Assembly: GCA_005878835.1 (NCBI GenBank)
Contig: VBMV01000073.1
Coordinates: 1-37,922 of the forward strand
From: Gammaproteobacteria bacterium
Lineage (GTDB): Bacteria; Pseudomonadota; Gammaproteobacteria; Steroidobacterales; Steroidobacteraceae
Length of the DNA: 37,922 nucleotides
Direction: 5' to 3'
In this document: one piece after another, positions 2,752-17,725 of the stretch
Layout of the letters: each line of letters starts with the position of its first letter
Numbering within the stretch: the first letter of the stretch is position 1
The notes under the pieces: generated by a model
What the model saw: only the letters and a program-made list of their open reading frames with translations
Databases searched by the model: none
Told to the model about the DNA's origin: nothing
Position numbers and translations under genes: made by a program

Positions 2752-5730
2752 ATGAAGAAGCAATTACACGGCGGCAACAGAAGTCTCATCGCATCGTTCG
2801 TCGCCTCCGCGCTCGCCTTGGCCGCCGGCGCGCCGGGCGTTACCTGGGCGCAGGAATCCGGTGCCACCCTGCAGGGCAAGGCCGAAGCCGACAGCGAAGT
2901 CACGGCCAAGAACGTCGACACCGGTCTCACGCGCCATACCAAGGCCGGCTCCGACGGCATCTACACCATCGTGGGTTTGCCGGCGGGGACCTACGACGTC
3001 GATGCGGGGCCCGGGACGCAGCAAACCGTCACGCTGAACGTCGCGACCACGGCGGTGCTGGACCTCCAGAAGCTGGAGACCGTCACGGTCTCGGGCACGG
3101 CCCAGCGCCTGGCCGAGGTGAGGACCTCCGAGATCGGCACCATCATTTCGCAGCAGCAGATCGAGACCGTCCCGCAGCTCACCCGCAACTTCCTCGAGTT
3201 CGCCGACACCGTGCCGGGCATGCAGTTCAAGGTGGACGCGGGCGGCAACACTTCGCTCCAGGGCGGAGCGCAGAACACCACCTCGGTGAATGTGTACATC
3301 GATGGCGTGGGCCAGAAGAACTACGTCAAGGAGGGCGGTGTCAGCGGGCAGTTCTTCACCCAGGGCAATCCCTTCCCGCAGCTCGCGATCGGCGAGTACA
3401 AGGTGATCACCTCCAACTACAAGGCCGAGTACGACCAGATCTCGAGCGCTGCGGTAACCGCCGAGACCAAGTCCGGCACCAACAGGTTCGAAGGGGAGGT
3501 CTTCGGCACCTACACCGGTCAGAATTTCCGAGCCGAAACGCCCTCGGAACTCGCCTCGAACCCGAACATCAAGACCCCCTCCAAGGACAAGGAGTTCGGG
3601 TTCGCGTTCGGCGGACCGATCATCCAGAACGCGCTGCATTTCTTCGTGACCTACGAGGCCAAGCGATTCACCACGCCGATCGCGATCACTCCCGGAAACG
3701 CGGCGCCGGCGAATATCGTCGCTCAACTGCCGCCGAGCGCCCTGGCGGAACTCGGACCGGCGAGCAAGTCCTTCGACGAGAACCTCTACTTCGGCAAGCT
3801 GGACTGGGAGCCCACCACCGATGATCGCTTCGTGCTGACCGCCAAAGTACGCCGCGAAGACCAAAGTGGAGACAGCCCGGGTTTCATCGCGCCGTCGGCC
3901 AGCATCGACGTTCTCAATGACGACACGCGCATCGATGCTCGCTGGGAGCGCAGCGCCGACCGCTGGTTCAACGAGGTGCTGGTCACGTACGAGGACTCGT
4001 TCGACTCGCCGACGGCACGCGCGTTCGGTAACGGTGCGCAATACACGTTCCAGCTCGCACCCGGCAACGACCAGCCGGTCCTGACCACAGGTCCAGCGAC
4101 CCCTGGGGCCACTCAGAACAAGGGTCAGAAGGGCTACTCCGTGGGGGACGAGCTGACGTTCAGCCACCTGCAGTGGTGGACCGGGGATCACACGGTCAAG
4201 ACGGGCATCAAGTACAAATGGGTGAAGCTCACGGCGCAGGACGCCGCGAACATCAACCCGCAGTTCTTCTACGACGTCAGCGCCACCGGCACCGCGGGCA
4301 TTCCCTACAAGGCGTTCTTCACCGATCCGGTGCCGGGCCTGAATCCGGTAGCCACTTCCGACAATAAACAGTTCGGCATCTATCTGCAGGATGACTGGGC
4401 GACCACCAACAAACTGACCTTGAACATCGGTATTCGCTGGGACTACGAGCGCACGCCGTCCTACCTGGATTTCGTGACGCCCCCCAATGTGGTGGCCGCG
4501 CTCATCGGCCCGAACCCGAACCCGCTGACACCGGGTCAGACCTACGCACAGGCCCTGGCGCTCGGGGGTGTGAACGTCAACGACTACATCAGCAACGGGC
4601 ACAACCGCTCGGCGTACGCCGGCGAGATTCAGCCGCGCCTCGGGTTCTCCTATGACCTGCAGGCCGATCAGCGGCACGTCATCTTCGGCGGAGTCGGTCG
4701 CTCCTACGACCGCGATCTGTTCGACTATCTGCAGCTGGAGGAGACCAAGCAGGCGTTGCCCCAATTCACGATTTTCTTCAACAGGCCGCCCGACCATCCG
4801 TGCATGGCCTCGCCGACCTGCGTGGCGTGGGACCCGAAATACCTCAACGGCCTCTCGAACCTGCAGGCGCTGGTCGCGGCCTCGAACGCGCACGCCGAGG
4901 TCGACTTGCTGAACAACAACCTCAAGGTTCCCTACTCGGATCAGTTCAGCCTCGGTATCCGCAACCGGGTCGGCGACTGGAACACCAGCGTCTCACTCGC
5001 TCGCATCTTGAGCTACGATGGCTTCGTATTCAGCCTCGGCAATCGCCACCCGAACGGCGCCTTCTTTGTGAACGGCGGTAGTCAGTTCGACAACCCGGTT
5101 CCGGGATTCGGGAGCCTGATCATCGGCAACAACGGGATCAAGACCCGCAATACCGAACTGCTGCTGTCGGCCGAGAAGCCCTTCACGCCGGCATCGCACT
5201 GGGGGGCGACGTTCGCCTACACCTACACCAGTGCTTCGCAGAATCGCGCCATCGGCGAGCACTACGCGTTCGACGAGGCGACCATCGGGCAGTATCTCTT
5301 CATTGCCTCGAACGCCGTGCCCAAACATCGCCTGGTGATGACCGGTTCGGTCGGCATCCCGTGGGACGTGATCATCGCCGCCAAATTCACCGTCGAGACA
5401 CCGACTCCGTGGAACGATTTCACTTGTCTGAAGAATACGCCGCCTTACTTTCCGACCGGGAGCACTTGCCAGCCGTTTGCCGCGACGCCGCCGGGCCTCG
5501 GTTATCGCAGCCTCGATATGGAGGTGACCAAGAATTTCGACGTCCGCGACGTGTCGACCTTATCGGTTCGCGTCGACGTGCTGAACCTCTTCAACGTCAA
5601 GAACTATAACGACTACACCGGGGGTGGCGATAACGGAGTCGTGAGCCATACTTCGGTGGCCTACAACCCGATCGGAAACATCCTGGGTGTTCCGCGGACG
5701 CTGCGCATGACGCTGAGCGCGAAGTTCTGA
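2752..5730 (+). CDS. Oar-like TonB-dependent receptor
   Basis: This 992-residue outer-membrane protein has a Sec signal peptide ending near TWA-QE (about residue 33). A carboxypeptidase-regulatory-like beta domain follows (about 36-105, with GIYTIVGLPAGTYDV). Next come a TonB-box-like KLETVTVSG, a plug domain (about 120-260, including NVYIDGVGQ), and a long beta-barrel ending in aromatic F (LRMTLSAKF). This architecture matches the Oar/CarboxypepD_reg class of TonB-dependent transporters, which take up large substrates or process signals using the proton motive force via TonB-ExbBD. GGGGGAG five bases before ATG 2752 fixes the start. The gene follows LacI-type regulator 1 by 33 bp, suggesting a regulated glycan receptor, but the substrate cannot be read from the sequence. 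Confidence 0.92.
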   Translation: MKKQLHGGNRSLIASFVASALALAAGAPGVTWAQESGATLQGKAEADSEVTAKNVDTGLTRHTKAGSDGIYTIVGLPAGTYDVDAGPGTQQTVTLNVATTAVLDLQKLETVTVSGTAQRLAEVRTSEIGTIISQQQIETVPQLTRNFLEFADTVPGMQFKVDAGGNTSLQGGAQNTTSVNVYIDGVGQKNYVKEGGVSGQFFTQGNPFPQLAIGEYKVITSNYKAEYDQISSAAVTAETKSGTNRFEGEVFGTYTGQNFRAETPSELASNPNIKTPSKDKEFGFAFGGPIIQNALHFFVTYEAKRFTTPIAITPGNAAPANIVAQLPPSALAELGPASKSFDENLYFGKLDWEPTTDDRFVLTAKVRREDQSGDSPGFIAPSASIDVLNDDTRIDARWERSADRWFNEVLVTYEDSFDSPTARAFGNGAQYTFQLAPGNDQPVLTTGPATPGATQNKGQKGYSVGDELTFSHLQWWTGDHTVKTGIKYKWVKLTAQDAANINPQFFYDVSATGTAGIPYKAFFTDPVPGLNPVATSDNKQFGIYLQDDWATTNKLTLNIGIRWDYERTPSYLDFVTPPNVVAALIGPNPNPLTPGQTYAQALALGGVNVNDYISNGHNRSAYAGEIQPRLGFSYDLQADQRHVIFGGVGRSYDRDLFDYLQLEETKQALPQFTIFFNRPPDHPCMASPTCVAWDPKYLNGLSNLQALVAASNAHAEVDLLNNNLKVPYSDQFSLGIRNRVGDWNTSVSLARILSYDGFVFSLGNRHPNGAFFVNGGSQFDNPVPGFGSLIIGNNGIKTRNTELLLSAEKPFTPASHWGATFAYTYTSASQNRAIGEHYAFDEATIGQYLFIASNAVPKHRLVMTGSVGIPWDVIIAAKFTVETPTPWNDFTCLKNTPPYFPTGSTCQPFAATPPGLGYRSLDMEVTKNFDVRDVSTLSVRVDVLNLFNVKNYNDYTGGGDNGVVSHTSVAYNPIGNILGVPRTLRMTLSAKF

Positions 5731-5935
5731 ACGCGGCCGACGGCATCGGTGCCTGCGCGTAGGCCGCGGTGCCCGTGTCCGGATACACGGTGAGGTGCGC
5801 ATCGCCGCCGCAGGTCTTGATCGCCTCGATCATGGCCGGCCCATGCTGACCTGGCGCGAGCACCCAGGTCTGGCGCGCCGCGCACCCTGCGATCACGCAG
5901 CTTGCGAGCAGCGTCACAAAAAGCGTTGTTCGCAC
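5731..5935 (-). pseudogene. Possible lipoprotein-esterase remnant
   Basis: Reading the minus strand from a GTG at 5935 gives a clear lipoprotein signal sequence (VRTTLFVTLLASCVIAGC, lipobox IAGC). Directly after it comes a stretch, MIEAIKTCGGDAHLTVYPDTG, resembling the end of secreted esterases/dienelactone hydrolases, where the catalytic histidine usually follows as GH. Here the expected DTGH is DTGT, and the frame then runs into sequence antisense to the TonB receptor without a recognisable ending. The simplest reading is an internally deleted, 3'-truncated gene: signal peptide joined to a hydrolase C-terminus. No good ribosome site is seen. It could still be expressed as a lipoprotein of about 112 residues (stop at 5597). 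The interval also hosts the promoter of regulator 2 on the other strand. Confidence 0.4.
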
Positions 5936-5976: not shown

Positions 5977-6006
5977 TTGACACGCGCAAGAGGGGCTGGC
6001 TAGACT
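5977..6006 (+). promoter_or_regulatory. Sigma70 promoter of the lacI2-GH144-ABC operon
   Basis: A consensus -35 TTGACA (5977-5982) is followed after 18 bases by TAGACT (6001-6006), a good -10. The predicted start site near 6013 falls inside the operator at 6011-6022. There is no other convincing promoter before the first gene (6065), and the downstream genes overlap, so this promoter probably drives the five genes through 12036. Confidence 0.65.
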
Positions 6007-6010
6007 TTCT

Positions 6011-6022
6011 GAAAACGTTTAC
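6011..6022 (+). promoter_or_regulatory. LacI/GalR-type operator GAAAACGTTTAC
   Basis: GAAAACGTTTAC is a near-perfect palindrome centred on CG, with an AAACGTTT core as in PurR/GalR-type operators. It begins four bases after the -10 box and covers the predicted transcription start, so a bound repressor would exclude polymerase. Eleven of its 12 bases match the site at 13431-13442 in front of the GH1 and GH39 genes. This links the two transcription units. Confidence 0.75.
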
Positions 6023-6064
6023 TTGGCGCCGGGATGGCGGCATCGCGGCTGCTGTGGAGAGTGT

Positions 6065-7093
6065 GTGGCAGCGACGATCAAGGACGTGGCGCGGCGGGCG
6101 CGGGTGTCGATCGCCTCGGTGTCCCGCACCCTCAACAACTCCAGCTCGGTGACCCCGAACGTTCGCGCGCGCGTGCTGCGCGCCGCGAGCCGGCTGCACT
6201 ACACGCCCCATGCCGGGGCGCGCAGCCTGATCATCCGCCGTACCCACACCATCGGGCTGCTGCTGCCGGATATCCACGGGGAGTATTTCTCCGAGCTGAT
6301 CCGCGGCGTGGACCGCGCGGCGCGGGCGCGCGGCCTGCACCTGCTGGTCTCGAGCACGCATGGCAATAACGCGGAGGCAGCCGAGGCGCTGCGATCGATG
6401 AACGGGCGCGTCGATGGTCTGCTGATGATGTCGCCGTACATCGGCGGCGCGAGCCTGGAAGACGCGCTGCCGAGCGGCTTGCCGACGGTGCTCATGAACA
6501 CCCACGAGGCCGCCGGCATCGGAGCGGCGTTCGTGGTCGATGATTTCGGTGGCGCGCGCGCCATGACCGCGCACCTGGTGGCCGCCGGCTATCAGGATAT
6601 TGCCCACATCCGCGGCCCGGCGAACGACTTCCAATCGCTGGAGCGTGTGCGCGGCTATCGTGCCGGCCTCGGCGCCGGCCGCGTCGCGCGGGTGATCGAC
6701 GGGGATTTCACCGAAGGGTCGGGGTACCTTGCGGGCCGGGTGCTCGCCGCGAGCGGCACCCGGCCGCAGGCGGTGTTCGCGGCCAACGACATGATGGCGA
6801 TCGGGTGCCTGTTCGCCCTCACCGAAGCCGGTGTGCGGGTTCCGCACGATATCGCGCTCGCCGGTTTCGATGACATTCCGCTCGCCCGCTTCGTCAGTCC
6901 GCCGCTGACGACGGTGCGCGTCGAGGTCGCCGAGATGGGGCGGCGTGCACTCGAGAGCCTCATCGTTGCCATCGCCGACCCGGACGCCGCGGGCCGATCG
7001 TCAGTCGAGACGGTGCCGGTCGAGCTGGTCGTGCGCGCCTCGTGCGGCGCGCATTCAGGCGGTCGAGCACGTTGCAAGGAGGCAGGCGACTGA
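6065..7093 (+). CDS. LacI/GalR-family transcriptional regulator 2
   Basis: The 342-residue protein has an N-terminal LacI helix-turn-helix (TIKDVARRARVSIASVSRTL), then the sugar-sensor core with IGLLLPDIHGEYFSELIRG, VFAANDMMAIG and FDDIPLARFVSPPLTTVRV. The GTG at 6065 is preferred: GGAG lies about 7 bases upstream and the HTH then starts at residue 4 as is usual. An ATG at 6023 would add 14 unrelated residues. The recognition-helix residues differ from those of regulator 1 (SIASVSRTLN against STATVSRVIN), which fits the different operator core at 6011 (AAACGTTT against AAGCGCTT). The stop codon overlaps the ATG of the glucanase gene (TGATG), so it is the first gene of the operon it probably controls. 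The likely inducer is a beta-glucan-derived oligosaccharide or glucose derivative, by context only. Confidence 0.95.
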   Translation: MAATIKDVARRARVSIASVSRTLNNSSSVTPNVRARVLRAASRLHYTPHAGARSLIIRRTHTIGLLLPDIHGEYFSELIRGVDRAARARGLHLLVSSTHGNNAEAAEALRSMNGRVDGLLMMSPYIGGASLEDALPSGLPTVLMNTHEAAGIGAAFVVDDFGGARAMTAHLVAAGYQDIAHIRGPANDFQSLERVRGYRAGLGAGRVARVIDGDFTEGSGYLAGRVLAASGTRPQAVFAANDMMAIGCLFALTEAGVRVPHDIALAGFDDIPLARFVSPPLTTVRVEVAEMGRRALESLIVAIADPDAAGRSSVETVPVELVVRASCGAHSGGRARCKEAGD

Positions 7094-9057
7094 TGGGTAG
7101 CTACGAACCGACGCGCGGGACTTCATCCCGGGGACGCCAGGGATTGCCGCTACTGATGGCGATCTGCGCGCTCCTGTCCGGTCGCACCGGCGCAGCCGGC
7201 AATTCGCTGCCGCCGGCGCCGGATGCGGCCGCCCGTTCGCCAACGCCTGCGCCGGTTGCAACCGGCGCGCTCCGTACTGCGTCGTCTCCGGTGGCCCTGG
7301 ATCCATTCTTCGCGGGGCTCGAGGAGCGCGCGTTGCGCATCCTCTATCCGACCGCGCCGCTCGAGCGCGAGGCCGCGGGCTTCGGGCCCGGCGGCAATTC
7401 GGCAACCCCGGCGCCGGACGCAATCGGGGTGCTGCGCGATCCGTATCCCGCGCCCTCGGATGTCTCGCGTTCCGTGCCCCTGGATCCGTTCTTCGCGGAT
7501 CTCGAGGAGCGCACGTTGCGCATTCTCTATCCGACCGCGCCGCTCGAGCGCGAGGCCGCGGGCTTCGGGCCCGGCGGCAATTCGGCAACCCCGGCGCCGG
7601 AGGCAATCGGGGTGCTGCGCGATAGGTATCCGGTGGACGATGCCGCGCATTCCGTGCCCCTGGATCCGTTCTTCGCGGATCTCGAGGAGCGCACGTTCCG
7701 CTTCTTCTGGGAGACCGGTAATCCCAGGAATGGCCTCATTCCCGACCGCTTTCCGACGCCCTCGTTCGCCAGCATTTCAGCGGTCGGCTTCGGGCTCACC
7801 GCCTACCCCATCGGCGTCGAACGCGGCTATATCTCGCGGCAGGCGGCGCGCCAGCGCGTGCTCGCGACCCTGCGCTTCTTCGCCGGCGAAGCGAATCAGC
7901 ACGGGTTCTTCTATCACTTCATCGACATGCGCAGCGGCGCGCGCTCCAATGAGAGCGAGGTCTCCACCGTCGACACCGCGCTGCTGCTCGCCGGGATGCT
8001 CTTTTGCCAGACCTACTTCGACGGCGATGATCCGGAGGAGATCGAGATCCGCACGCTGGCCGAGGAGATCTACCGGCGGGTGGACTGGACCTGGGCCCAG
8101 CCGCGCCCGCCGGCGGTCGCGCTCGCCTGGACGCCGGAAGGGGGTTTCGCGGGCCTCGACTGGAACGGTTACAACGAGGCGATGCTCGTTTACCTGCTCG
8201 CCCTGGGCTCCCCCACGCACCCCGTCGACGAGCAGGCCTGGACGCAGTGGACCAGCACGTACGACAAGTTCTGGGGCACGCTCTACGACCAGACCTATCT
8301 GAGCTTCGCGCCCCTCTTTGGCCACCAGTACACGCACGTATGGGTGGATTTCCGCGGCATCCAGGATTCGTACATGCGCGAGCATGGACTCGACTACTTC
8401 GAGAACAGCCGCCGGGCCACCTACGCGCAGCGCCGGTACGCCATCGCGAATCCGAAGCAATTCCAGGGATACGGCAAGAACGTGTGGGGCATGAGCGCTT
8501 CCGATGGCCCCGGACCTGCGCGCGAGTCGAATCTGGGCGGGGATCGCCGCTTCCTGAGGTACGCCGCGCGCGGCGTGGCCTTGGGCCGCGTCGTCGACGA
8601 CGGCACCATCGCCCCAACCGCCGCCATCAGCTCGCTCCCCTTTGCCCCCGAGATCGTGCTGCCCGCAGCGCTCGAGATGTACCACCGCTTCGGCTCCTCG
8701 ATCTACTCCTCGTACGGGTTCCTGGACGCGTTCAACGCCAGCTTCCCCGGGCCGCAGAGCCCACCACAGCCGACGCTCCCGGGCTGGGTTGACCAGGACT
8801 ACATCGGCATCGATCAGGGACCGATACTGGCGATGATCGAGAACTATCGTTCGGCGCTGGTGTGGCGAGTCATGCACAGCAACTCGTACATGCGCGAGGG
8901 CCTGGAGCGCGCCGGATTCTCGGGCGGGTGGCTCGAGGAGCCTCCGCTCGGGCCGACACCACCCCCGCCGGGTCCGCCCGAGCAGTATCCGCTGGTGCAG
9001 AATCCCCTCGCTGCTGCTGCGCCGTTGGCGCAGAGTCCGCTCGCGCCAACCCCGTGA
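7093..9057 (+). CDS. GH144-type (glucoamylase-like, PF10091) beta-1,2-glucanase
   Basis: The 654-residue protein has an N-terminal hydrophobic export segment (LPLLMAICALLSG). A duplicated linker region (67-187) precedes the conserved domain of about 430 residues that starts near LDPFFADLEERTFRFFWETG. Family hallmarks include AVGFGLTAYPIGVERGYISR, EVSTVDTALLLAGML, WNGYNEAMLVYLLALGSP, PLFGHQYTHVWVDFRG, NSRRATYAQRRYAIANP and YGKNVWGMSASDGP. This is the 'glucoamylase-like' domain now classed as GH144, whose characterised members are endo-beta-1,2-glucanases or exo-acting sophorose-releasing enzymes. It ends in a proline-rich tail. GGAGG nine bases upstream supports ATG 7093, which overlaps the lacI2 stop. 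The transporter genes follow with a 4-base overlap, consistent with degrading glucan outside the cytoplasm for import. Endo or exo mode cannot be told from sequence. Confidence 0.9.
   Translation: MGSYEPTRGTSSRGRQGLPLLMAICALLSGRTGAAGNSLPPAPDAAARSPTPAPVATGALRTASSPVALDPFFAGLEERALRILYPTAPLEREAAGFGPGGNSATPAPDAIGVLRDPYPAPSDVSRSVPLDPFFADLEERTLRILYPTAPLEREAAGFGPGGNSATPAPEAIGVLRDRYPVDDAAHSVPLDPFFADLEERTFRFFWETGNPRNGLIPDRFPTPSFASISAVGFGLTAYPIGVERGYISRQAARQRVLATLRFFAGEANQHGFFYHFIDMRSGARSNESEVSTVDTALLLAGMLFCQTYFDGDDPEEIEIRTLAEEIYRRVDWTWAQPRPPAVALAWTPEGGFAGLDWNGYNEAMLVYLLALGSPTHPVDEQAWTQWTSTYDKFWGTLYDQTYLSFAPLFGHQYTHVWVDFRGIQDSYMREHGLDYFENSRRATYAQRRYAIANPKQFQGYGKNVWGMSASDGPGPARESNLGGDRRFLRYAARGVALGRVVDDGTIAPTAAISSLPFAPEIVLPAALEMYHRFGSSIYSSYGFLDAFNASFPGPQSPPQPTLPGWVDQDYIGIDQGPILAMIENYRSALVWRVMHSNSYMREGLERAGFSGGWLEEPPLGPTPPPPGPPEQYPLVQNPLAAAAPLAQSPLAPTP
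7291..7695 (+). repeat. In-frame tandem repeat inside the GH144 gene (183 + 180 bp + partial)
   Basis: Unit 1 covers 7291-7473 (61 codons), unit 2 covers 7474-7653 (60 codons), and a third, partial copy (7654-7695) runs into the catalytic domain. Each unit encodes V-x-LDPFFAxLEER, then LRILYPTAPLEREAAG, a glycine/proline linker and AIGVLRD. About 100 consecutive bases (around 7350-7440 against 7531-7620) differ at a single position, so the duplication is recent or kept homogeneous. A more diverged piece (GNSLPPAPDA, from about 7198) looks like the end of an older unit. Confidence 0.93.
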
Positions 9058-10343
9058 CCGCAGGCAGGAGCCCTCGCCCGCCCTGGCTGCTGACGGTCCT
9101 CCTGCCCCTGCTGTGCGCCGTCGGCTGCGGCTCGCCGGCGCCACACCAGCGCGTGGTGAGTGTGTGGGCGATGGGCCGCGAGGGCGCGGTGATCGCGCAG
9201 CTACTGCCCGAATTCACCAAGCTCCATCCCGACATCGAGGTACGGATCCAGCAGCTGCCCTGGACCGCCGCTCATCAGAAGCTGCTCACCGCCTTCGCGG
9301 GCGAGGCGACGCCGGACCTGTGTCAGCTCGGCAATACCTGGATCCCGGAGTTCGTCGCGCTCAAGGCGCTCGAGCCTCTGGACCGGAGTCTCGCGCGCTC
9401 CACGGCCGTGCAGGCGAGCGACTATTTCCCCGGGATCTGGGACACCAACATCATTGGCGGCACCCTCTACGGAGTGCCGTGGTATATCGACACGCGGCTG
9501 CTGTTCTATCGACGCGACCTGCTCGCGCAGGCGGGCTTTGCCGAGCCGCCCAGGACCTGGGCGGAATGGTCGCGCATGCTCGCGGCCATCAAGGCCCTCG
9601 TCGGGCCCGAGCGTTACGGCGTGCTGCTGCCCTTGAATGAATTCGATACGCTACTGGTGCTCTCGATACAGCAACCGGAGCCGCTGCTGCGCGCGGACGG
9701 TCGCTACGGCAACTTCCGCAGCGCCGGCTTTCATCGCGCCCTGGGCTTCTACCGCGAGATCTTCCAGCGCCAGTGGGCGCCGCCGGTCGACAGCACGCAG
9801 ATCTCCAACGTCTGGAACGAGCTCGGGCGCGGCTACTTTTCCTTCTACATCTCCGGCCCCTGGAACATCGGCGAATTCACGCGCCGCCTGCCGCCGCAGC
9901 AGCAGGACACCTGGATGACCGCGCCCATGCCGGGGCCGGATGGCCCGGGCGCTTCCATCGCGGGCGGCGCGAGCCTGGTGATCTTTCGCCGCTCGCGCCA
10001 CAAGGCGGAGGCCTGGCTGCTGCTGGAGTTCCTGTCCTCGCCGCAGACCCAGAAGCGCTTCTACCAGCTGACCGGAGACCTGCCGCCGCGCCGCAGCACC
10101 TGGCGCGCGCCGGAGCTCTCCGGCAACCTCTACGCCCGCGCCTTCCGCGAGCAGCTCGAGCGGGTGAAGCCCCAGCCGAAAGTGCCGGAGTGGGAACGCA
10201 TCGTGACGGACATGCGTCTGATGGCCGAGCGCGTCGTGCACGGCGATCTCTCGGTCGAGGAGGGGGCGAGGGATCTCGACCGTGAGGTCGATGCCGTTCT
10301 GCAGAAGCGGCGCTGGCTGCTCGACCGGGGCCGCACACCGTGA
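9054..10343 (+). CDS. ABC sugar transporter substrate-binding lipoprotein
   Basis: The 429-residue protein begins at GTG 9054, whose TGA overlaps the glucanase stop (GTGA). It has a lipoprotein signal, WLLTVLLPLLCAVGC, with cysteine 25 as the acylation site. The mature part is a family-1 extracellular solute-binding protein: VVSVWAMGREGAVIAQLLPE at the start, ATPDLCQLGNTWIPEF, the hinge region GTLYGVPWYIDTRLLFYRRD and the late segment GGASLVIFRRSRHKAEAWLL. Such proteins bind oligosaccharides in the periplasm and deliver them to MalF/MalG-type permeases, which are encoded immediately downstream. The operon context with GH144 and the nearby GH1 enzyme suggests beta-1,2-gluco-oligosaccharides as ligand. 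This is inferred; no ligand residues were identified. Confidence 0.93.
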   Translation: MTAGRSPRPPWLLTVLLPLLCAVGCGSPAPHQRVVSVWAMGREGAVIAQLLPEFTKLHPDIEVRIQQLPWTAAHQKLLTAFAGEATPDLCQLGNTWIPEFVALKALEPLDRSLARSTAVQASDYFPGIWDTNIIGGTLYGVPWYIDTRLLFYRRDLLAQAGFAEPPRTWAEWSRMLAAIKALVGPERYGVLLPLNEFDTLLVLSIQQPEPLLRADGRYGNFRSAGFHRALGFYREIFQRQWAPPVDSTQISNVWNELGRGYFSFYISGPWNIGEFTRRLPPQQQDTWMTAPMPGPDGPGASIAGGASLVIFRRSRHKAEAWLLLEFLSSPQTQKRFYQLTGDLPPRRSTWRAPELSGNLYARAFREQLERVKPQPKVPEWERIVTDMRLMAERVVHGDLSVEEGARDLDREVDAVLQKRRWLLDRGRTP

Positions 10344-11218
10344 GAGTCGGGTATGCTGGCTGGGCCTTCGCCGCGCCGGCGCTGCTGATCATCACGGTGT
10401 TCTTCTTCGTCCCGGTGCTGTCGGCGCTGATCGTCAGCCTCACCGACTTCGACCTCTATGCGCTCGCCGACATCCGCAATCTGCGCTTCGTCGGGCTCGA
10501 CAATTACCGCCAGCTGTTGCACGCGCCGCAGTTCTGGCGGGCGGTAGCCAACACCGGCTACTTCGTCGCGGTGGGGGTGCCGCTGTCCCTGGCGGCCTCG
10601 CTCGCGAGCGCGCTGCTCGTCAACTCGCGGCTGGCGTACTTCAGCGCGTTCTTCCGCACCGCGTTCTTCGCGCCGGTGGTGACGACCCTGGTGGCCGTGG
10701 CGGTCGTGTGGCGTTATCTGCTGCATACGCGCTATGGACTCATCAACTATGCGCTCGCTCACGTCGGTATTCACCCGATCGACTGGCTGGGCGATCCGCA
10801 TTGGGCGCTGCCCGCTATCATCCTGTTCGCGGTGTGGAAGAACTTCGGCTACAACATGGTCATTTTCATGGCCGCGCTGCACAGCATTCCCGTCGACCTG
10901 TACGAAGCGGCGCGCCTCGACGGTGCGAGCCGCTGGCAGGAGCTCGGCCGCATCACGCTGCCGATGTTGCGTCCGACCCTGCTGCTGGTGAGCATCCTGA
11001 CGGTCGCGGGATATTTCCAGCTGTTCGCGGAGCCGTATGTGATGACCCAGGGCGGGCCGCTGCAAAGCACGGTCAGCGTGCTGTACTTCATGTACGAAGA
11101 AGGCTTCAAGTGGTGGAATCTCGGTTCCGCCTCCGCGGTCGCGTTCCTGCTGTTCCTCATGATCCTCGCGGTCACGGCGCTGCAGGTGCGCCTCACGCGC
11201 GACGCGCAGGCACGATGA
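10340..11218 (+). CDS. ABC sugar transporter permease 1 (MalF/UgpA type)
   Basis: The 292-residue inner-membrane protein has about six transmembrane helices, starting with WAFAAPALLIITVFFFVPVL. It carries the ATPase-contacting EAA loop of binding-protein-dependent permeases (EAARLDGASRWQELGRITLP). LYEAARLDG and the following TLPMLRPTLLLV are typical of the CUT1 carbohydrate group. GTG 10340 overlaps the stop of the binding-protein gene by four bases, indicating translational coupling. It forms the transmembrane channel with permease 2. No ATP-binding subunit is encoded in this window. Confidence 0.94.
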   Translation: MRVGYAGWAFAAPALLIITVFFFVPVLSALIVSLTDFDLYALADIRNLRFVGLDNYRQLLHAPQFWRAVANTGYFVAVGVPLSLAASLASALLVNSRLAYFSAFFRTAFFAPVVTTLVAVAVVWRYLLHTRYGLINYALAHVGIHPIDWLGDPHWALPAIILFAVWKNFGYNMVIFMAALHSIPVDLYEAARLDGASRWQELGRITLPMLRPTLLLVSILTVAGYFQLFAEPYVMTQGGPLQSTVSVLYFMYEEGFKWWNLGSASAVAFLLFLMILAVTALQVRLTRDAQAR

Positions 11219-12036
11219 GCGTCTCCGGTGCCCGGGTGTTGCTGCATGCGCTGCTGCTCGGCGCCGCGGCGATCACGCTGTTTCCGCTGCTGTGGATGCT
11301 ATCGGTGTCGTTCATGGCGGGCGGGGAAGCGAGCGCCTTTCCGCCACCGCTGCTGCCGGCCCATGGGACGCTGGCGAACTACCGGCAGCTCTTCGGCCAG
11401 CAGAACATCGGCCGTTACCTGACCAACAGCCTGTCGCTTGCGGCCATGACGACGCTGCTGTCGCTGCTGCTGAATTCCCTCGCGGGCTACGCGTTCGCCA
11501 AGCTGCACTTCCGCGCGCGCGAGCCGCTCCTGAGGGTACTGCTGGCCGCGCTGGTGATCCCCAGCCAGGTGGCGATGTTGCCGCTGTTTCTGATGATGAA
11601 ATGGCTCGGCCTCGTCAACACTTATGCGGCGGTGGTGGTGCCGGCGATGGCGGGAATTTTCGGGGTGTTCCTGGTCAGGCAGTACGCGCTCACGATACCG
11701 GATGAGCTGCTGGAGGCGGCGCGCATCGATGGCGCGAGCGAGCTGCGTATCTTCACCTCGATCGTGCTGCCGGCGCTGCGGCCGATCCTGGTCACGCTCG
11801 GGGTGTTCACCTTTCTTGGCAGCTGGAACGACTTCATGTGGCCGCTGATCGTGCTCACTGACCAGGGCCTGTATACGCTGCCCATTGCGCTCGCCACGCT
11901 GTCGCGCGAACACGTGCAGGACAACGAGCTGATGATGGCCGGCGCGGTACTCACCGTACTGCCGGTGCTGGCGCTGTTCCTGTCGCTGCAGCGCTATTAC
12001 ATCCGCGGCATCCTGATGGGGAGCGTCAAGGGCTGA
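11215..12036 (+). CDS. ABC sugar transporter permease 2 (MalG/UgpE type)
   Basis: The 273-residue protein begins at ATG 11215, overlapping the preceding stop in ATGA. It has about six membrane helices and the MalG-type EAA loop (EAARIDGASELRIFTSIVLP), followed by GVFTFLGSWNDFMWPLIVL, a hallmark of CUT1 permeases. The C-terminal QRYYIRGILMGSVKG is also typical of the family. With permease 1 it should form the heterodimeric channel for the oligosaccharide captured by the lipoprotein encoded at 9054. It is the last gene of the overlapping operon; the GH1 gene converges on it with a 9-bp gap, and no hairpin-plus-T-tract terminator is visible there. Confidence 0.95.
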   Translation: MSVSGARVLLHALLLGAAAITLFPLLWMLSVSFMAGGEASAFPPPLLPAHGTLANYRQLFGQQNIGRYLTNSLSLAAMTTLLSLLLNSLAGYAFAKLHFRAREPLLRVLLAALVIPSQVAMLPLFLMMKWLGLVNTYAAVVVPAMAGIFGVFLVRQYALTIPDELLEAARIDGASELRIFTSIVLPALRPILVTLGVFTFLGSWNDFMWPLIVLTDQGLYTLPIALATLSREHVQDNELMMAGAVLTVLPVLALFLSLQRYYIRGILMGSVKG

Positions 12037-12045
12037 CTGAAAGGT

Positions 12046-13386
12046 CTACGGTTCGAGCGCCGCGCCGTTGCTGGCGATGACCCGGGAATAGAAACGCGCG
12101 CTCGCCTTGGGCGTGCGCCGCTGGGTCTCGAAGTCCACGTGCACGATCCCGAAGCGCTTCGAATAGCCGAGCGCCCATTCGAAGTTATCCAGCAGCGACC
12201 ACACGAAATAACCGCGCAGATCCACCCCCTGCTCGAGGGCCGCATGGATGGCCCGCACGTGCTCGCGCAGGTAGGCGACGCGCAACGGATCCTCGAGCTG
12301 ATCGTCTGCGACCGTCGGCGGATCGAAGAAAGCGGCGCCGTTCTCGGTGACGTAAACGGGCAGGTCGCCGTAGCGCTGCTTCACCCACAGCAGCGTGTCG
12401 GTGAGTCCCTGCGGGTACACTTCCCACTGCGTTTCCGTGTAGAGCGCACGGCGCTGCCGCACGGGCGCCGCCCGCACCGGCCAGGCAGCCGCATCGAAGC
12501 GCACCACGCTGCGGGTGTAGTAGTTCACACCGAGAAAATCGATTGGCTGCCTGATGAGCTCGAAGTCCGCCTGCGGCCATTGCGGCCAGGCGTTGCCGAA
12601 GATCTCGCTGAGCTCCGGCGGGTAGTTGCCGAGGAACACCGGCTCCAGGTACTGGCGGTTCATGTACGCATCCGCTCGCTGGGTGGCGGCGGCATCTTCA
12701 GGTAGGCTCGAGGCCGCATGTTTGGGTTCGAGGTTCACCACCAGACCAATCTGATGTCTGCCCTCACTGCGATAAGCCTGGATCGCCGCCCCATGAGCGC
12801 GCAGCAGCTGGTGGGTGGCGATGGGCGCCTCGAACAGGTTGCGATGGCCGGGCGCCAGTGCCCCGTGCAGGTAGCCGCCGTCCGTGACCACCCACGGCTC
12901 ATTCAGCGTCGCCCACAGCTTGACCCGGTCGTCGAGCTTGCGAAACACGATCGCGGCGTACTCGGCAAACCACCTGGCCACATCGGGATTGAGCCAACCG
13001 CCACGGTCATCCAGTGCCGCCGGCAGATCCCAGTGATACAGCGTCACCATGGGCGCAATGCCGTGCCTGAGCAACGCATCCGTCAGGCGGTCGTAGAAGG
13101 CAAGGCCGGCCGGATTGAGCGCACCGGCGCCCTGCGGGAGCACGCGGCTCCAGGAGATGCTGAAGCGGTAGGCCTTGAGGCCGAGCCGGCCCATCAGCGC
13201 CACATCATCCGCGTAGCGGCGATAGTGGTCGCAGGCGATATCCCCGGTATCCCCGTCGCGCACCAGGCCGGGGGTGTGCGCGAAGCGCTGCCAGATGCTC
13301 GGCGCCGCGCCGTCGGCGAGCGGGGAGCCTTCGATCTGATGAGCCGAAGTCGCACAACCCCACAGGAAATTCGCCGGGAAACTGAT
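12046..13386 (-). CDS. GH1 beta-glucosidase (start codon unresolved)
   Basis: This is a complete GH1 TIM barrel. It runs from FPANFLWGCATSAHQIEGSP through YRFSISWSRVLPQG, the acid/base glutamate in LWATLNEPW, VNYYTRS and the nucleophile glutamate in PVYVTENGAAF, to FVWSLLDNFEWALGYSKRFG. GH1 enzymes are retaining beta-glycosidases; with no signal peptide it should act in the cytoplasm on imported oligosaccharides, giving glucose. The start is problematic. The family normally begins a few residues before FPANFLWG, but the only canonical in-frame start is ATG 13488, which would place the operator (13431-13442) inside the gene. I give 13386, an ATC codon six bases after GAGG. A GTG at 13391-13393, one base out of frame, is an alternative if the CCC at about 13376-13380 carries an extra base. 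It converges on the ABC operon and diverges from GH39. Confidence 0.88.
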   Translation of the reverse strand: MSFPANFLWGCATSAHQIEGSPLADGAAPSIWQRFAHTPGLVRDGDTGDIACDHYRRYADDVALMGRLGLKAYRFSISWSRVLPQGAGALNPAGLAFYDRLTDALLRHGIAPMVTLYHWDLPAALDDRGGWLNPDVARWFAEYAAIVFRKLDDRVKLWATLNEPWVVTDGGYLHGALAPGHRNLFEAPIATHQLLRAHGAAIQAYRSEGRHQIGLVVNLEPKHAASSLPEDAAATQRADAYMNRQYLEPVFLGNYPPELSEIFGNAWPQWPQADFELIRQPIDFLGVNYYTRSVVRFDAAAWPVRAAPVRQRRALYTETQWEVYPQGLTDTLLWVKQRYGDLPVYVTENGAAFFDPPTVADDQLEDPLRVAYLREHVRAIHAALEQGVDLRGYFVWSLLDNFEWALGYSKRFGIVHVDFETQRRTPKASARFYSRVIASNGAALEP

Positions 13387-13430
13387 GGCGCACCTCGCCG
13401 TTGTTATCGGACAATACTCCGGGACGCTGC

Positions 13431-13442
13431 GAAAACGTTTTC
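13431..13442 (+). promoter_or_regulatory. LacI/GalR-type operator GAAAACGTTTTC in the GH1/GH39 divergent region
   Basis: GAAAACGTTTTC is a perfect 12-bp palindrome and differs by one base from the operator at 6011-6022 at the lacI2 promoter. It sits between the GH1 gene (minus) and the GH39 gene (plus), next to the AT-rich stretch 13457-13467. It could therefore serve both directions. The protein expected to bind it is LacI-type regulator 2. I could not assign -35/-10 boxes with confidence. Confidence 0.75.
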
Positions 13443-13520
13443 TGAGCCCCGGGATGCAAATTTTATCCGAGTTTGCGCGGGGCTGCATCTGCTCGGGTGG
13501 ATACGGGACTCAGGAGGTGC

Positions 13521-15044
13521 ATGGTGCGCAAGGGCTGGCGATCGTCGATCGCGGTACTGGCACTGGCGCTCGCCGTCACGCGAGTGGACGCCCAGGTCGG
13601 TGAGGAGCGCATCGCGGTGGATGCGGCGGCGCCGACACGGCCATTTCCGCACTTCTGGGAGCGGATGTTTGGATCCGGACGCGCGCTGCTGACGCTGCGC
13701 GAGAGTTACCGTCAGGACCTGCGCGCCGTGCGCGCCGTCACGGCGCTCGCCTACATCCGCTTCCACGGCATCTTGCACGATGAGCTGGGCGTGTACACGG
13801 AGGCTCCGCAGGGCGAGCCCATATACAACTTCTCCTACGTCGACCAGGTGTACGACGGTCTTCTGGCCAACGGCGTTCGACCGCTGGTCGAGCTGAGCTT
13901 CATGCCGCGTCAGCTCGCCGGCCGCGATATACGCCAGAGCTTCTGGTACCGTCCGGTCGTCTCACCCCCCAAGGACTATGGCCGCTGGGATGCGTTGATG
14001 ACGGCGTTCGCACGGCACCTCATCGAGCGCTACGGGATCGAGGAGGTCAGCCGCTGGTACTTCGAGGTGTGGAACGAGCCCAATCTGGATTTCTGGGCAG
14101 GCGAGCCCAAGCAGGCCACTTACTGGAGGCTGTACGATCACACCGCCCGAGCTCTGAAGGCGGTGGATGCGCGCCTGCGCGTCGGCGGGCCGGCGACGGC
14201 GCAGGCCGCGTGGGTTGCGGATTTCATTCAACACTGCAAGCAGAAGGGTGTCCCGGTCGACTTCGTCTCGACACACGTCTATGGCGACGATACCGCGAAG
14301 GACGTATTCGGGTCCGTTGCGCCGATCGGGCGTGAGCGGATGGTATGTCGCGCCGTAGAGAAGGTGCATGCCGAAATCCAGGCTTCCCCGTTGCCGTCCT
14401 TGCCGCTGATCTGGACGGAATTCAACGCCAGCTTCGCGAACCACCCGCAAGTGACCGACGCCCCCTACATGGGACCGTGGCTGGCGGAAACGGTCCGTCA
14501 ATGCGACGGACTCGTACAGGACATGTCGTATTGGACGTTCTCCGACGTGTTTGAGGAGGGCGGTGTGGTGAAGACGCCGTTCTACGGCGGCTTCGGGCTC
14601 CTGGCCGCGGGCGGCATTCCAAAGCCGGCCTTCAACGCCTTTGCCCTGCTGCACCAACTCGGCGAGGAGCGCTTCCGCGCCGAGGCCGAGGGCGCGCTGC
14701 TGACGCGCCGGGGCGACGGAACACTGCTGCTCGCCCTCTGGAACTACACCGAGATCGGCTCGACCCCGAAGGCGCGCAAGGTGATACTGACTGTGCAGCA
14801 CAGCGCCGCCCGTACCGCGAGCATTCAGTCACTGGACGCCGAGCACGGCAATGTTCTTCCAGCGTACGTGAGGATGGGATCGCCGCGCTATCCGACGCAA
14901 CGCCAACTCGCCGAGTTGCGTGCCGCGGCCGCATTGCCGGCACCGGTCGCACGTCCGCTCGACGCCGGCACGCTGGCGCTCGAAATTCCGCCCGACGGAC
15001 TGGTGCTGGTCACGATTGGCGCGACGCGGTCGGACAAAGAGTAG
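13521..15044 (+). CDS. Secreted GH39-family glycosidase
   Basis: The protein is 507 residues from ATG 13521; GTG 13524 is equally possible and better spaced from AGGAGG at 13512-13517. A signal peptide (SSIAVLALALAVTRVDA-Q) directs export. The TIM barrel follows GH39 (beta-xylosidase/alpha-iduronidase clan A): FHGILHDELGVY, the acid/base glutamate E186 in FEVWNEPNLDFW, FVSTHVYG and the nucleophile E300 in LPLIWTEFNAS. A C-terminal beta-sandwich of about 120 residues closes the chain. GH39 members cleave beta-xylosides, alpha-iduronides and some beta-glycosides, so the substrate is open. The shared operator at 13431 ties it to the GH144/ABC/GH1 system, suggesting a periplasmic or extracellular side activity on the same or an associated glycan. 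An SDR gene follows after 45 bp. Confidence 0.88.
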   Translation: MVRKGWRSSIAVLALALAVTRVDAQVGEERIAVDAAAPTRPFPHFWERMFGSGRALLTLRESYRQDLRAVRAVTALAYIRFHGILHDELGVYTEAPQGEPIYNFSYVDQVYDGLLANGVRPLVELSFMPRQLAGRDIRQSFWYRPVVSPPKDYGRWDALMTAFARHLIERYGIEEVSRWYFEVWNEPNLDFWAGEPKQATYWRLYDHTARALKAVDARLRVGGPATAQAAWVADFIQHCKQKGVPVDFVSTHVYGDDTAKDVFGSVAPIGRERMVCRAVEKVHAEIQASPLPSLPLIWTEFNASFANHPQVTDAPYMGPWLAETVRQCDGLVQDMSYWTFSDVFEEGGVVKTPFYGGFGLLAAGGIPKPAFNAFALLHQLGEERFRAEAEGALLTRRGDGTLLLALWNYTEIGSTPKARKVILTVQHSAARTASIQSLDAEHGNVLPAYVRMGSPRYPTQRQLAELRAAAALPAPVARPLDAGTLALEIPPDGLVLVTIGATRSDKE

Positions 15045-15089: not shown

Positions 15090-15902
15090 ATGAGTAGTCG
15101 GACCTGGGCGATCGTCACCGGTGCAGCCGGTGGCATGGGGGCAGCGTTTACCCGGGCGCTCGCCAAGCGTGGATACCCGGTGCTCGCCGTGGCGCGCAGC
15201 GCCGAGTCCCTGGCGACGGTGGCCAATGAGATCAGGAAGAGCGGCGCGTTCGTCGAAACGCTGGCCGCGGACCTGGCGAGCGCCGCGGGCGTCGCGGCGG
15301 TGGTCGAGAAAGCGCACTCTCTGGGCGACATAGAGCTGCTGGTCAACAACGCGGGACTGTCGACGTCAGGTCACTTTCTGGAGCAATCCCCTGACAGGGA
15401 GATTCAGTCGATCCGCGTGAACGTCGAGGCCCTTTATACGCTGACGCGCAGGATCGTTCCGGGCATGGTGGAACGGAAACACGGCGGGATCCTCAACATT
15501 GCCTCCATCGTCGCGTTCCAGGCGGTTCCGTATTGGACGACCTACGCCGCGACCAAGGCCTTCGTGCTGGCGTTTGGAGAAGGGCTGTCATACGAGCTTC
15601 GCGGCAGCGGCGTTCGCGTAGTCACGGTGTGCCCAGGTTTCACGCGCACCGGCCTGTACGCCGACTCCGGTGTCCCGGGGCTCGCTGGCAGGTTCCTGCC
15701 GTTCGCGACTCCGGAGGAGGTGGTGCGCGCGGCGCTGGCGGCGTATGACTCGGGTCGCGTCGTTCGCGTCGTTGGCCTGGCGAACCGTGCGCTGGCTTTC
15801 TCCAGCGCTCTGACGCCGCGTTTCATACTGCGTTGGCTCATGGCGAGGATGTTTGCTCCAATCGCTGCGGCGCGTTCGCAGCCCGGGTCGATGCGCCGGT
15901 GA
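15090..15902 (+). CDS. Short-chain dehydrogenase/reductase (DltE-like classical SDR)
   Basis: The 270-residue protein has the Rossmann nucleotide site TGAAGGMG (residues 11-18), the NNAG structural motif (LLVNNAGLS), a catalytic serine in NIASIVAF and the catalytic YAATK. It is a classical NAD(P)-dependent SDR of the YqjQ/DltE group, which often begin TWAIVTGAA. The C-terminal 50 residues contain a hydrophobic/amphipathic segment (LTPRFILRWLMARMF) that may touch the membrane. GGAGG seven bases upstream fixes ATG 15090. It is probably cotranscribed with the GH39 gene. The substrate is unknown; a keto-sugar or lipid are both possible. Confidence 0.9.
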   Translation: MSSRTWAIVTGAAGGMGAAFTRALAKRGYPVLAVARSAESLATVANEIRKSGAFVETLAADLASAAGVAAVVEKAHSLGDIELLVNNAGLSTSGHFLEQSPDREIQSIRVNVEALYTLTRRIVPGMVERKHGGILNIASIVAFQAVPYWTTYAATKAFVLAFGEGLSYELRGSGVRVVTVCPGFTRTGLYADSGVPGLAGRFLPFATPEEVVRAALAAYDSGRVVRVVGLANRALAFSSALTPRFILRWLMARMFAPIAAARSQPGSMRR

Positions 15903-16102: not shown

Positions 16103-17725
16103 ATGTGGCCTCGCCTGCGGCAGGCGGCTGTGATCGCCGTGGTTCTGCTCGCGTCGCTACTGCTGTCGCAGGACACGGCCACGAGCTCGGGCGGGCCCGT
16201 TACCGCGCCGACAAGCCAGGCTCACCGCCATGCCGGGGCGGCTACGGACAAGACGGTACGGGCCGCCCAGCCTCGACCCTTCGCTTTCGCCAGTGTGCAG
16301 CAGCTGGCGCAGGAGCGCGCGGCACGCGATTATCGGCCGATGCCAGATGCGCTACCGGCCTCCCTCGCCAATCTGAGCTACGACCAATACCGCGACATTC
16401 GCTTTCGCCCCGAAAGCGCGCTGTGGCGCGGCCAGTCGCTGTTCGAGGTGCAGTTCTTCCACCGCGGCTATCATGTCAGGCAACGCGTAAATGTCTTCGA
16501 GGTGACTGGTGCCGGCGCGAGCCCGGTCGCCTACAACCCTCAATTCTTCAGCTTCGGGCCGCTGCTCAGGCTGCCGAAGGTTGCGGCGAATCTCGGCTTC
16601 GCGGGTTTCCGCGTGCACTACCCGCTGCACTCACCCGCGTACAAGGACGAGCTGATCGTCTTCCTCGGCGCTTCTTATTTCCGTGTGCTCGGCCGCAATC
16701 AGCATTACGGCGCCTCGGCGCGCGCTCTGGCGATCGATACTGCAGCACCCGGCGGGGAGGAATTTCCCTCATTCACCGACTTCTGGCTGGTGCGGCCGCA
16801 GCCAGCCGATCGGGTGCTCACGATCTATGCGCTACTCGACGGCAAAAGCATGGCTGGCGCGTATCAATTCCAGATTCGACCCGGCGCCACCACGCAGGTC
16901 GAAGTGCACTGCGGGCTCTACCCACGCCGCGCCATCGGCAAGCTGGGCGTGGCCCCACTCACCTCCATGTTTTTCTACGGCGAGGAGGGCACCGCCCGGC
17001 GCTTTGATGATTACCGCCCGCAAGTCCACGACAGCGACGGCTTGATGACGGAAACCGGTCACGGGGAATGGATCTGGCGTCCGCTCGCCAATCCGCGCGA
17101 GCTGCGGGTCAATCGCTTCATGGACGAGAATCCGCGCGGCTTCGGTCTGATCCAGCGGGAGCGCGATTTCAATCGTTACCAGGATGTGGAAGCTCAATAT
17201 CAATCGCGGCCGAGCTACTGGGTCGAGCCTCTCGGGGACTGGGGCAAGGGCGGAGTGGAGCTGGTGGAGATTCCCAGCGATGAGGAAATCCACGACAATA
17301 TGGTCGCCTACTGGGTGCCCGCGCAGGCTCCGGCGGCGGGCAAGCCATTGTCATTCTCCTATCTGTTGTCCGCCTACACACAGTCGCCGCGCTGGCCGCC
17401 GGGCGGCCGGGTTGTCGCGACCCGCAGCGGCAAGCCGGCCATGGGCGACAACAAGGGGCATTTTGCCCCCGGCGCGCGCCGCATGCTGGTGGACTTCGCC
17501 GGTGGCGATCTGGACGCACTCGAGAGCGCCCAGCCGGTCAAAGCGGACGTGAGTGCCGAAAACGGCCAGATCGAAGCAGTGACCGTGCAGCGCCTTGCGA
17601 GCGGCCTGTGGCGGGTTGCATTCGTGGTGACGCCCAAATTGAGGAAGCCGGTCGATCTGCGCTGCTATCTCACCTTGTATGGCGAGGGGCTGACGGAAAC
17701 CTGGGTCTATCAATGGACGCCTTGA
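16103..17725 (+). CDS. opgG: Periplasmic glucan biosynthesis protein OpgG (MdoG)
   Basis: The 540-residue protein has an N-terminal Sec-type signal (QAAVIAVVLLASLLL) and no twin-arginine motif, which argues for OpgG rather than OpgD. The two-domain OpgG/OpgD fold is recognisable from FAFASVQQLAQERAARDY, SYDQYRDIRFRPESALW, FEVQFFHRGYH, FGASYFR-like IVFLGASYFRVLG, HDSDGL (309-314), FGLIQRERDFNRYQD and the C-terminal LYGEGLTETWVYQW. OpgG is a periplasmic protein needed for backbone formation of osmoregulated periplasmic glucans (beta-1,2-linked, beta-1,6-branched). The family now includes beta-1,2-glucan-active enzymes (GH186). Its last 13 bases overlap opgH. A 200-bp gap separates it from the SDR upstream, so it probably has its own promoter; I could not define one. 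Confidence 0.94.
   Translation: MWPRLRQAAVIAVVLLASLLLSQDTATSSGGPVTAPTSQAHRHAGAATDKTVRAAQPRPFAFASVQQLAQERAARDYRPMPDALPASLANLSYDQYRDIRFRPESALWRGQSLFEVQFFHRGYHVRQRVNVFEVTGAGASPVAYNPQFFSFGPLLRLPKVAANLGFAGFRVHYPLHSPAYKDELIVFLGASYFRVLGRNQHYGASARALAIDTAAPGGEEFPSFTDFWLVRPQPADRVLTIYALLDGKSMAGAYQFQIRPGATTQVEVHCGLYPRRAIGKLGVAPLTSMFFYGEEGTARRFDDYRPQVHDSDGLMTETGHGEWIWRPLANPRELRVNRFMDENPRGFGLIQRERDFNRYQDVEAQYQSRPSYWVEPLGDWGKGGVELVEIPSDEEIHDNMVAYWVPAQAPAAGKPLSFSYLLSAYTQSPRWPPGGRVVATRSGKPAMGDNKGHFAPGARRMLVDFAGGDLDALESAQPVKADVSAENGQIEAVTVQRLASGLWRVAFVVTPKLRKPVDLRCYLTLYGEGLTETWVYQWTP

Follow-up and report, generated by a model that had tools for sequence, protein, structure and literature searches.

A LacI-family regulator and two near-identical predicted operators at a candidate beta-1,2-glucan utilization locus of a Steroidobacteraceae genome

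RESULTS

Two near-identical palindromes frame a regulator, glucanase, and importer operon

The window analyzed here, a stretch of 37,922 nucleotides from a Gammaproteobacteria bacterium of the family Steroidobacteraceae (GCA_005878835.1, contig VBMV01000073.1), carries genes predicted to act on beta-1,2-glucan together with the LacI-family regulators LacI1 and LacI2, and our main subject is LacI2 with its two putative operators, O1 and O2. The draft genome to which the window belongs, as one of 186 contigs, totals 4.18 Mb and is 95% complete. Its genes follow the order lacI1, TonB receptor, a promoter with O1, lacI2, GH144, a CUT1 solute-binding protein (SBP), permease 1, and permease 2, and continue with GH1 on the opposite strand, O2, GH39, a short-chain dehydrogenase, opgG, and an opgH-like glycosyltransferase.

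lacI2 (6065 to 7093, + strand) encodes a protein in which Pfam matched both the helix-turn-helix (HTH) and the sugar-binding domain, and which is likely an autoregulated repressor. The GTG at 6065 is our preferred start; the longest open reading frame (ORF) begins at a TTG at 6023, and the HTH starts with MAATIKDVA. Upstream on the + strand lies a sigma-70-like promoter, TTGACA-N18-TAGACT (-35 box at 5977-5982, -10 box at 6001-6006), with 10/12 matches compared to a mean of 0.0 in shuffled sequence, and its -35 box is also kept in the related loci L018, L019, and L049. O1, GAAAACGTTTAC (6011 to 6022), begins 4 bp past the -10 box and 42 bp upstream of the lacI2 start, and O2, GAAAACGTTTTC (13431 to 13442), lies between GH1 and GH39. 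An earlier sequence-only reading of this DNA had described near-identical palindromes at 6011 and 13431, the promoter with its 18-bp spacing, and an overlap of O1 with the start site of the operon. Each was present as described, the overlap being with the predicted transcription start, and the two sites that the window holds with at most one mismatch are above chance (mean of 0.01 in 100 dinucleotide shuffles of the window).

Because neighboring genes in the run from lacI2 through permease 2 share one to four bases, they likely form a single transcript. The overlaps, also pointed out earlier, are real at all four junctions: the lacI2 stop (7091-7093) with the GH144 ATG (7093), the GH144 stop (9055-9057) with the SBP GTG (9054), the SBP stop (10341-10343) with the permease 1 GTG (10340), and the permease 1 stop (11216-11218) with the permease 2 ATG (11215).

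Across the 4.18-Mb genome, the exact palindrome occurs once, and allowing ≤1 mismatch yields four places, two of which are O1 and O2. The third (L005) falls within an ORF of 608 aa that Pfam did not match, and the fourth (L004) lies ~270 bp upstream of an ORF with a Trans_reg_C domain. At ≤2 mismatches, we found 50 sites compared to 26 for a reversed-pattern control, and since this is just twice the control, these sites are largely noise. The sequence-only reading had proposed a genome scan for further sites, and our scan returned no convincing LacI2 target besides O1 and O2.

The predicted LacI2 operators are conserved in relatives

We aligned the same 12 bp without gaps between the window and related loci and compared their identity with that of the 30-bp flanks. 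O1 keeps 92-100% identity to the window in L018, L019, L046, and L049; its flanks reach 57-90% in L018 and L019, which are near relatives, and 23-40% in L046 and L049. The same 92-100% holds for O2 in L018, L030, and L049, where flank identity is 50% for L018 and 7-23% for the other two.

We also searched 58 genomes of the genus for GAAAACGTTTWC, using the backwards pattern as a control. GAAAACGTTTWC occurs at 17 places in 12 of the 58 genomes, and 13 of the 17 lie at promoters that, in loci of this kind, precede lacI, GH144, a GH1/ATPase pair, or the TonB receptor (two each in G000 and G005, and one each in G004, G006, G015, G022, G025, G027, G041, G051, and G057). The other four (G025:C199, G027:C24, and two in G048) are outside such promoters. 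For the backwards pattern, matches numbered 2 forward and 5 reverse, compared to 13 and 12 for GAAAACGTTTWC. This genus scan is the strongest evidence that the palindrome would act as a real operator. The CG-centered palindrome stands before the regulator's own gene and before target genes and is kept in relatives, and a CG-centered even palindrome is described as a general rule for LacI-family operators in the portion of PMC4052901 available. Together, site conservation and the genus scan bear out the earlier proposal that LacI2 and two near-identical operators form a regulon, and we regard LacI2 with O1 and O2 as a well-supported predicted regulon.

LacI1 has its own predicted operator pair

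lacI1 (1666 to 2718, + strand; Pfam, BLASTP, and tree) is preceded by a predicted operator pair, GCAAGCGCTTAC ... GTAAGCGCTTGC, inverted and spaced 21 bp (1614 to 1646), and is followed by a TonB-dependent outer-membrane receptor (2752 to 5730, + strand; Pfam PF25183 and PF00593), which holds the same position in Luteimonas-type loci. The lacI1 sites are of the type AAGCGCTT, and the single site of lacI2 is of the type AAACGTTT. The idea that one LacI serves the whole pathway is thus not supported, because LacI1 has its own, different predicted operator pair ahead of the TonB receptor.

In a tree of 42 of the 43 LacI sequences collected from loci, LacI1 groups with L154, L156, and L167 from another genus of the family (support 99/97), and LacI2 groups with L018, L019, and L049 (support 100/99), whose sites match those of LacI2. 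A recent duplication giving rise to LacI1 and LacI2 is not supported, given the separate, supported groups. In L154, L156, and L167, one LacI heads the receptor, GH144, and the importer together. We infer that in the window lineage control may have been split, with LacI1 assigned to the receptor and LacI2 to cleavage, import, and hydrolysis.

Alternatively, LacI1 and LacI2 might be cross-binding repressors of one shared regulon with the same inducer, the difference between AAGCGCTT and AAACGTTT only tuning strength. In BLASTP, the two proteins are 58% identical over their full length, including the sugar-binding domain. All sites are CG-centered, and a 21-bp-spaced CG-centered pair also stands upstream of the lacI1 orthologs in L154, L156, and L167, where the letters beside CG vary. 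Luteimonas L037 has, in the stretch covered, a single LacI gene and differing sites before lacI and the GH144 endo-beta-1,2-glucanase gene (SGL), and in L233 (14718-14750, G015), TGTAAACGCTTAC and TGTAAACGTTTTC are adjacent upstream of a TonB receptor. A shared regulon sits poorly, however, with the separate tree groups and with layouts that are kept apart, a 21-bp-spaced pair for lacI1 and a single AAACGTTT-type site for lacI2. Overall, we consider it rather unlikely, and we favor LacI2 as the regulator acting at O1 and O2.

The predicted enzymes include a GH144 glucanase coupled to GH39 in relatives

The GH144 endo-beta-1,2-glucanase (SGL; 7093 to 9057, + strand) is assigned by Pfam and by its Protein Data Bank (PDB) kin, and its N-terminus is signal-like by eye. 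The best of its eight PDB matches is XcSGL (8XUL, E 3.5e-172), with CpSGL (5GZH) at E 8.4e-52 and the GH194-type PgSGL3 (8XUK) at just 4.1e-10. We rejected families GH192-194 for this glucanase since its nearest solved protein is a GH144 enzyme. The equivalents of CpSGL E211, F268, and Y330 are kept and E142 is replaced by Asp, as in XcSGL, with positions hand-counted along the CpSGL alignment. The residue list for the GH144 clan and the acidic base candidate come from the part of PMC12102758 available, which also reports XcSGL (XCC2207) to be active on beta-1,2-glucan. The original GH144 assignment is thus upheld by kinship to XcSGL and by the clan residues, and hydrolysis of beta-1,2-glucan is predicted.

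The GH144 gene also contains an in-frame tandem repeat at 7291-7705 (183-bp unit, 2.3 copies, 91% matches) that covers the first catalytic-domain residues and a linker. Other partial copies are present in L018 and L019, and none in L020 and L022.

The GH1 beta-glucosidase (12046 to 13488, - strand) is matched by Pfam and, above cut-off, by the NCBIfam BGL equivalog, and has no signal peptide by eye. Its true start lies somewhere between 13488 and ~13385. In the window, L018, L030, and L049, no ATG, GTG, or TTG is in frame between O2 and the point where conservation of the protein begins; an in-frame ATC is conserved in all four, so that translation would begin either at a non-AUG codon or upstream of the operator. 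A GH1 beta-1,2-glucosidase is known from Streptomyces, according to the accessible text of PMC12369401.

The GH39 glycosidase (13521 to 15044, + strand), identified by Pfam, PDB, and motifs, has a signal-like N-terminus by eye and is followed after 45 bp by a short-chain dehydrogenase (15090 to 15902, + strand; Pfam) that is probably co-transcribed with it. The nearest solved proteins are beta-xylosidases, and the window protein was aligned to 2BS9, 1PX8, and 6YYH. In a wider set from which matches of <330 residues were dropped, both Glu, at the positions we take to be catalytic, are kept in 35/35 aligned sequences, including that of the window. The YWTFSDVFEE-type motif of beta-xylosidases is also present in this set, with slight variation in a few. 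A search for xylose isomerase (TIGR02630), the one xylose route covered, gave no match in the host genome, which speaks against a xylose role; the control search was positive in 6 of 14 genomes.

GH39 directly follows GH144, with no transporter between them, in L021-L027, and GH144-GH39 pairs within 10 kb number 27 in 24 genomes, the window not counted. GH144 lies within 10 kb of 12/16 GH39 genes at ≥65% identity to the window protein, 13/68 at 50-64%, and 2/8 below 50%, so that the link is strong only for close GH39 relatives. These counts include L029 (G006:C47) among the 27 pairs and the 12/16, although we gave it no weight. In L029, window positions 8094-9100 are joined straight to 13540-15018, which may reflect a deletion variant or a chimeric assembly. 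G008 encodes a 69-70% identical GH39 and has no GH144 match.

The sequence-only reading had found GH39 an unexpected member of the regulon for a pure beta-1,2-glucan pathway, and had taken it as a hint of a heteroglycan or a new GH39 activity. Its membership is plausible, since GH39 also stands behind such operators in two other layouts and is coupled to GH144 in relatives. In G057, the exact site lies at a promoter where an ATPase gene precedes GH39, as the ATPase does in L018, and in G022 the site is upstream of a TonB receptor-halogenase-GH39 set. We ruled out an accidental position of GH39 behind O2 given the ATPase-then-GH39 promoters of L018 and G057, the G022 layout, and the 27 pairs. 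Tentatively, GH39 might act as an exo-beta-1,2-glucosidase or sophorohydrolase and so be the periplasmic partner of GH144, which would be an activity new to family GH39, with GH144-GH39 as a core module of beta-1,2-glucan use in this bacterial family and the paired LacIs dividing outer-membrane uptake from cleavage and import; we hold this extended proposal possible, though doubtful.

Putative glucan synthesis genes lie behind GH39

opgG (16103 to 17725, + strand) encodes an MdoG, GH186-type periplasmic glucan protein (Pfam, 639 bits) and begins ~1 kb behind GH39. Its nearest solved relatives are glucans biosynthesis protein G (8IP2/1TXK), and it is the sole PF04349 match in the genome. The family 2 glycosyltransferase gene that follows (17608 to 19557, + strand; Pfam) is named opgH-like from its place after opgG. 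In addition, L164 (G000:C99) encodes a 2773-aa cyclic-glucan-synthase-like protein in which PF10091 and GH94 domains are accompanied by a weak match to a glycosyltransferase, so that the same genome holds opgGH and this protein, two possible routes to beta-1,2-glucan.

These genes raise the prospect that the locus mainly turns over the cell's own beta-1,2-glucans, either the opgGH product or a cyclic glucan from the C99 synthase, and foreign glucan less. In L022 and L024, as well, opgGH is upstream of GH144-GH39 and within 10 kb of GH144. On the other hand, the TonB receptor and the CUT1 importer point outward, an opgG homolog was seen in just 4 of 80 loci (L022, L024, L027 at 40%, and L029), flanks being limited or cut, and the window scan found no LacI2 site before opgG at ≤1 mismatch. 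We judge a locus devoted mainly to own-glucan turnover unlikely.

The importer lacks the ATPase of its relatives

The SBP (9054 to 10343, + strand) and permeases 1 (10340 to 11218, + strand) and 2 (11215 to 12036, + strand) were assigned by Pfam, and the PDB search placed 3UOR first and Lin1841 second for the SBP. We take 3UOR, its nearest solved relative, to be a Xanthomonas protein named MalE. Since kin of 3UOR are found here in GH144 loci, its maltose label may merit checking. Lin1841 is the sophoro-oligosaccharide (Sop(n))-binding protein of Listeria in the available portion of PMC12369401. Because the second-best solved relative of the SBP is Lin1841, the earlier suggestion that the CUT1 system may import sophoro-oligosaccharides is supported.

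Between its O2 and GH39, L018 encodes an ABC ATPase of 370 aa that has OB_MalK and TOBE domains and scores above the UgpC cut-off, and in L030, L031, L046, and L049, ATPase homologs are divergent from GH1 with a CG-centered LacI-type site between them. The gene is missing from the window, and a search of the host genome for the OB_MalK domain gave no match at E ≤ 0.001. At E ≤ 1e-100, the ATPase is present in 5 of 58 genus genomes, the host genome not among them. The best candidate substitute is a UgpC-like ATPase on C121 beside its own CUT1 genes, which scores 411 bits to the UgpC model compared to a cut-off of 432, its best stretch being residues 1-245. An assembly gap may account for the absence. 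The tryptophan-halogenase gene of L018 is also absent from the window, and at 5740-5930, between the receptor and lacI2, we recognized by eye what may be left of an esterase-like gene; its L018 counterpart (~8165-8800) is longer. Since the importer ATPase of relatives is missing here, the gene set is not complete, contrary to the sequence-only reading; relatives carry this ATPase at the O2 promoter, and the receptor stands behind a second LacI with another predicted operator.

These losses could indicate that the importer branch is decaying, with the SBP and permeases as relics and GH144 and GH39 as a periplasmic pair as in L021-L027. The absent ATPase and halogenase genes, the esterase-like remnant, and the lack of an OB_MalK domain fit such decay, as do the seven loci with GH144 then GH39 and no transporter and the broken or partial SBP and GH1 matches in the near relative L019. 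However, the reading frames of the window SBP, both permeases, and GH1 are intact, with 81-98% identity to their counterparts in L018 and L019, and the C121 ATPase with its own CUT1 genes exists. A decaying importer is improbable in our view.

DISCUSSION

In our best explanation, which we hold with considerable confidence, LacI2 would be a local autoregulated repressor of both units through O1 and O2. From sequence we infer LacI2 binding, the inducer, export, and substrate flow as follows. Without inducer, LacI2 on O1 would block the lacI2-GH144-SBP-permease-permease operon, and LacI2 on O2 would block the divergent GH1 and GH39(-dehydrogenase) units. The inducer releasing LacI2 may be sophorose, longer Sop(n), or glucose derived from these. 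GH144, presumably exported, would cut beta-1,2-glucan to Sop(n), which the SBP and permeases would import and cytoplasmic GH1 would split to glucose, while exported GH39 would work outside the cytoplasm and trim some of this material. Passage across the outer membrane would proceed via the TonB receptor under LacI1 and its AAGCGCTT operators. The importer ATPase appears to have been lost from the O2 promoter in this genome, and since the importer's own ATPase is lost, import would either borrow a UgpC-like ATPase from elsewhere or be impaired.

Several observations weigh against this explanation. No MalK/UgpC-type ATPase gene is found at the window locus, where just 78 bp separate O2 and GH39; no sigma-70-like promoter was found around O2; and the assembly is a draft of 186 contigs. 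As a general rule, it is challenged by the absence of GAAAACGTTTWC from 46 of 58 genus genomes and by the seven loci L021-L027, in which GH144 adjoins GH39 and no site lies near the pair at ≤2 mismatches; L024 has one site, but 2.8 kb upstream of GH144. Finally, G015, G025, and G027 carry a AAACGTTT site at promoters together with LacI proteins 44-47% identical to LacI2, and since such LacIs share the 12-mer, site and LacI protein are no strict pair and cross-binding by LacI1 is possible. That the palindromes arose by chance or serve another CG-centered regulator is very improbable, even though most genomic matches at ≤2 mismatches are noise and CG-centered palindromes are generic for the LacI family (PMC4052901, as far as available), given the 0.01 sites expected in the window, the footprint, the 13 of 17 genus places, and the distance of the remaining two of the genome's four LacI-type proteins (30-32% identical to LacI1).

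Known systems share parts of this arrangement. Listeria innocua lin1838-1843 likewise groups a LacI gene with an ABC importer for Sop(n) and a beta-glucosidase, and the available text of PMC3960220 suggests LacI control of the cluster and describes no operators. Unlike the window with GH144, GH1, and GH39, the Listeria cluster has a GH94 phosphorylase and GH3. Streptomyces griseus SGR_2422-2427 also brings together a GH1 beta-1,2-glucosidase, a Lin1841-like importer, and an endo-beta-1,2-glucanase homolog, but its glucanase belongs to GH193, and the accessible text of PMC12369401 does not contain "LacI" and has GH39 only in a reference title. The Ignavibacterium album SGL cluster (IALB_1177-1187) similarly combines GH144 enzymes, an ABC importer, and a proposed TonB transporter; it differs in having a GH35 transferase and GH94, and GH39 is not named in the available part of PMC8861115.

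The gene order recurs in Luteimonas-type loci (e.g., L037), with lacI-TonB receptor-SGL-SBP-permease-permease and CG-centered sites before lacI and SGL, although the fetched stretch has a single LacI and, unlike the window, no GH39 match. In Xanthomonas, XCC2207 encodes the characterized GH144 glucanase XcSGL (PMC12102758, in which the available text has LacI solely as a family name in a reference), and XCC2208, the next locus number, is listed among TonB receptors in the accessible portion of PMC1790865. The same portion describes the Xanthomonas sux locus, where a LacI-type repressor (SuxR) likewise governs a TonB-receptor sugar locus, but for sucrose and with other enzymes and another transporter. 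Our literature searches, in the texts available, returned no description of the operator of any beta-1,2-glucan LacI cluster. The window supplies an operator sequence, a footprint in the genus and one Rhodanobacter, and named targets, so that the regulator is directly testable. Because GH144 and GH39 are paired repeatedly, the substrate of this GH39 group merits assay; among the papers searched, seven name both families, namely PMC12369401 and six that are community surveys by title. With opgGH adjacent, synthesis and breakdown of one polymer would be encoded next to each other.

A further beta-1,2-glucan enzyme is possible among two large F5/8 type C proteins, encoded at L150 (13919-17038) and L200 (5769-8921). 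They are 32% identical over 724 residues, and one has a weak six-hairpin match; one lies in a GH144 importer locus and the other beside the GH39 of G008.

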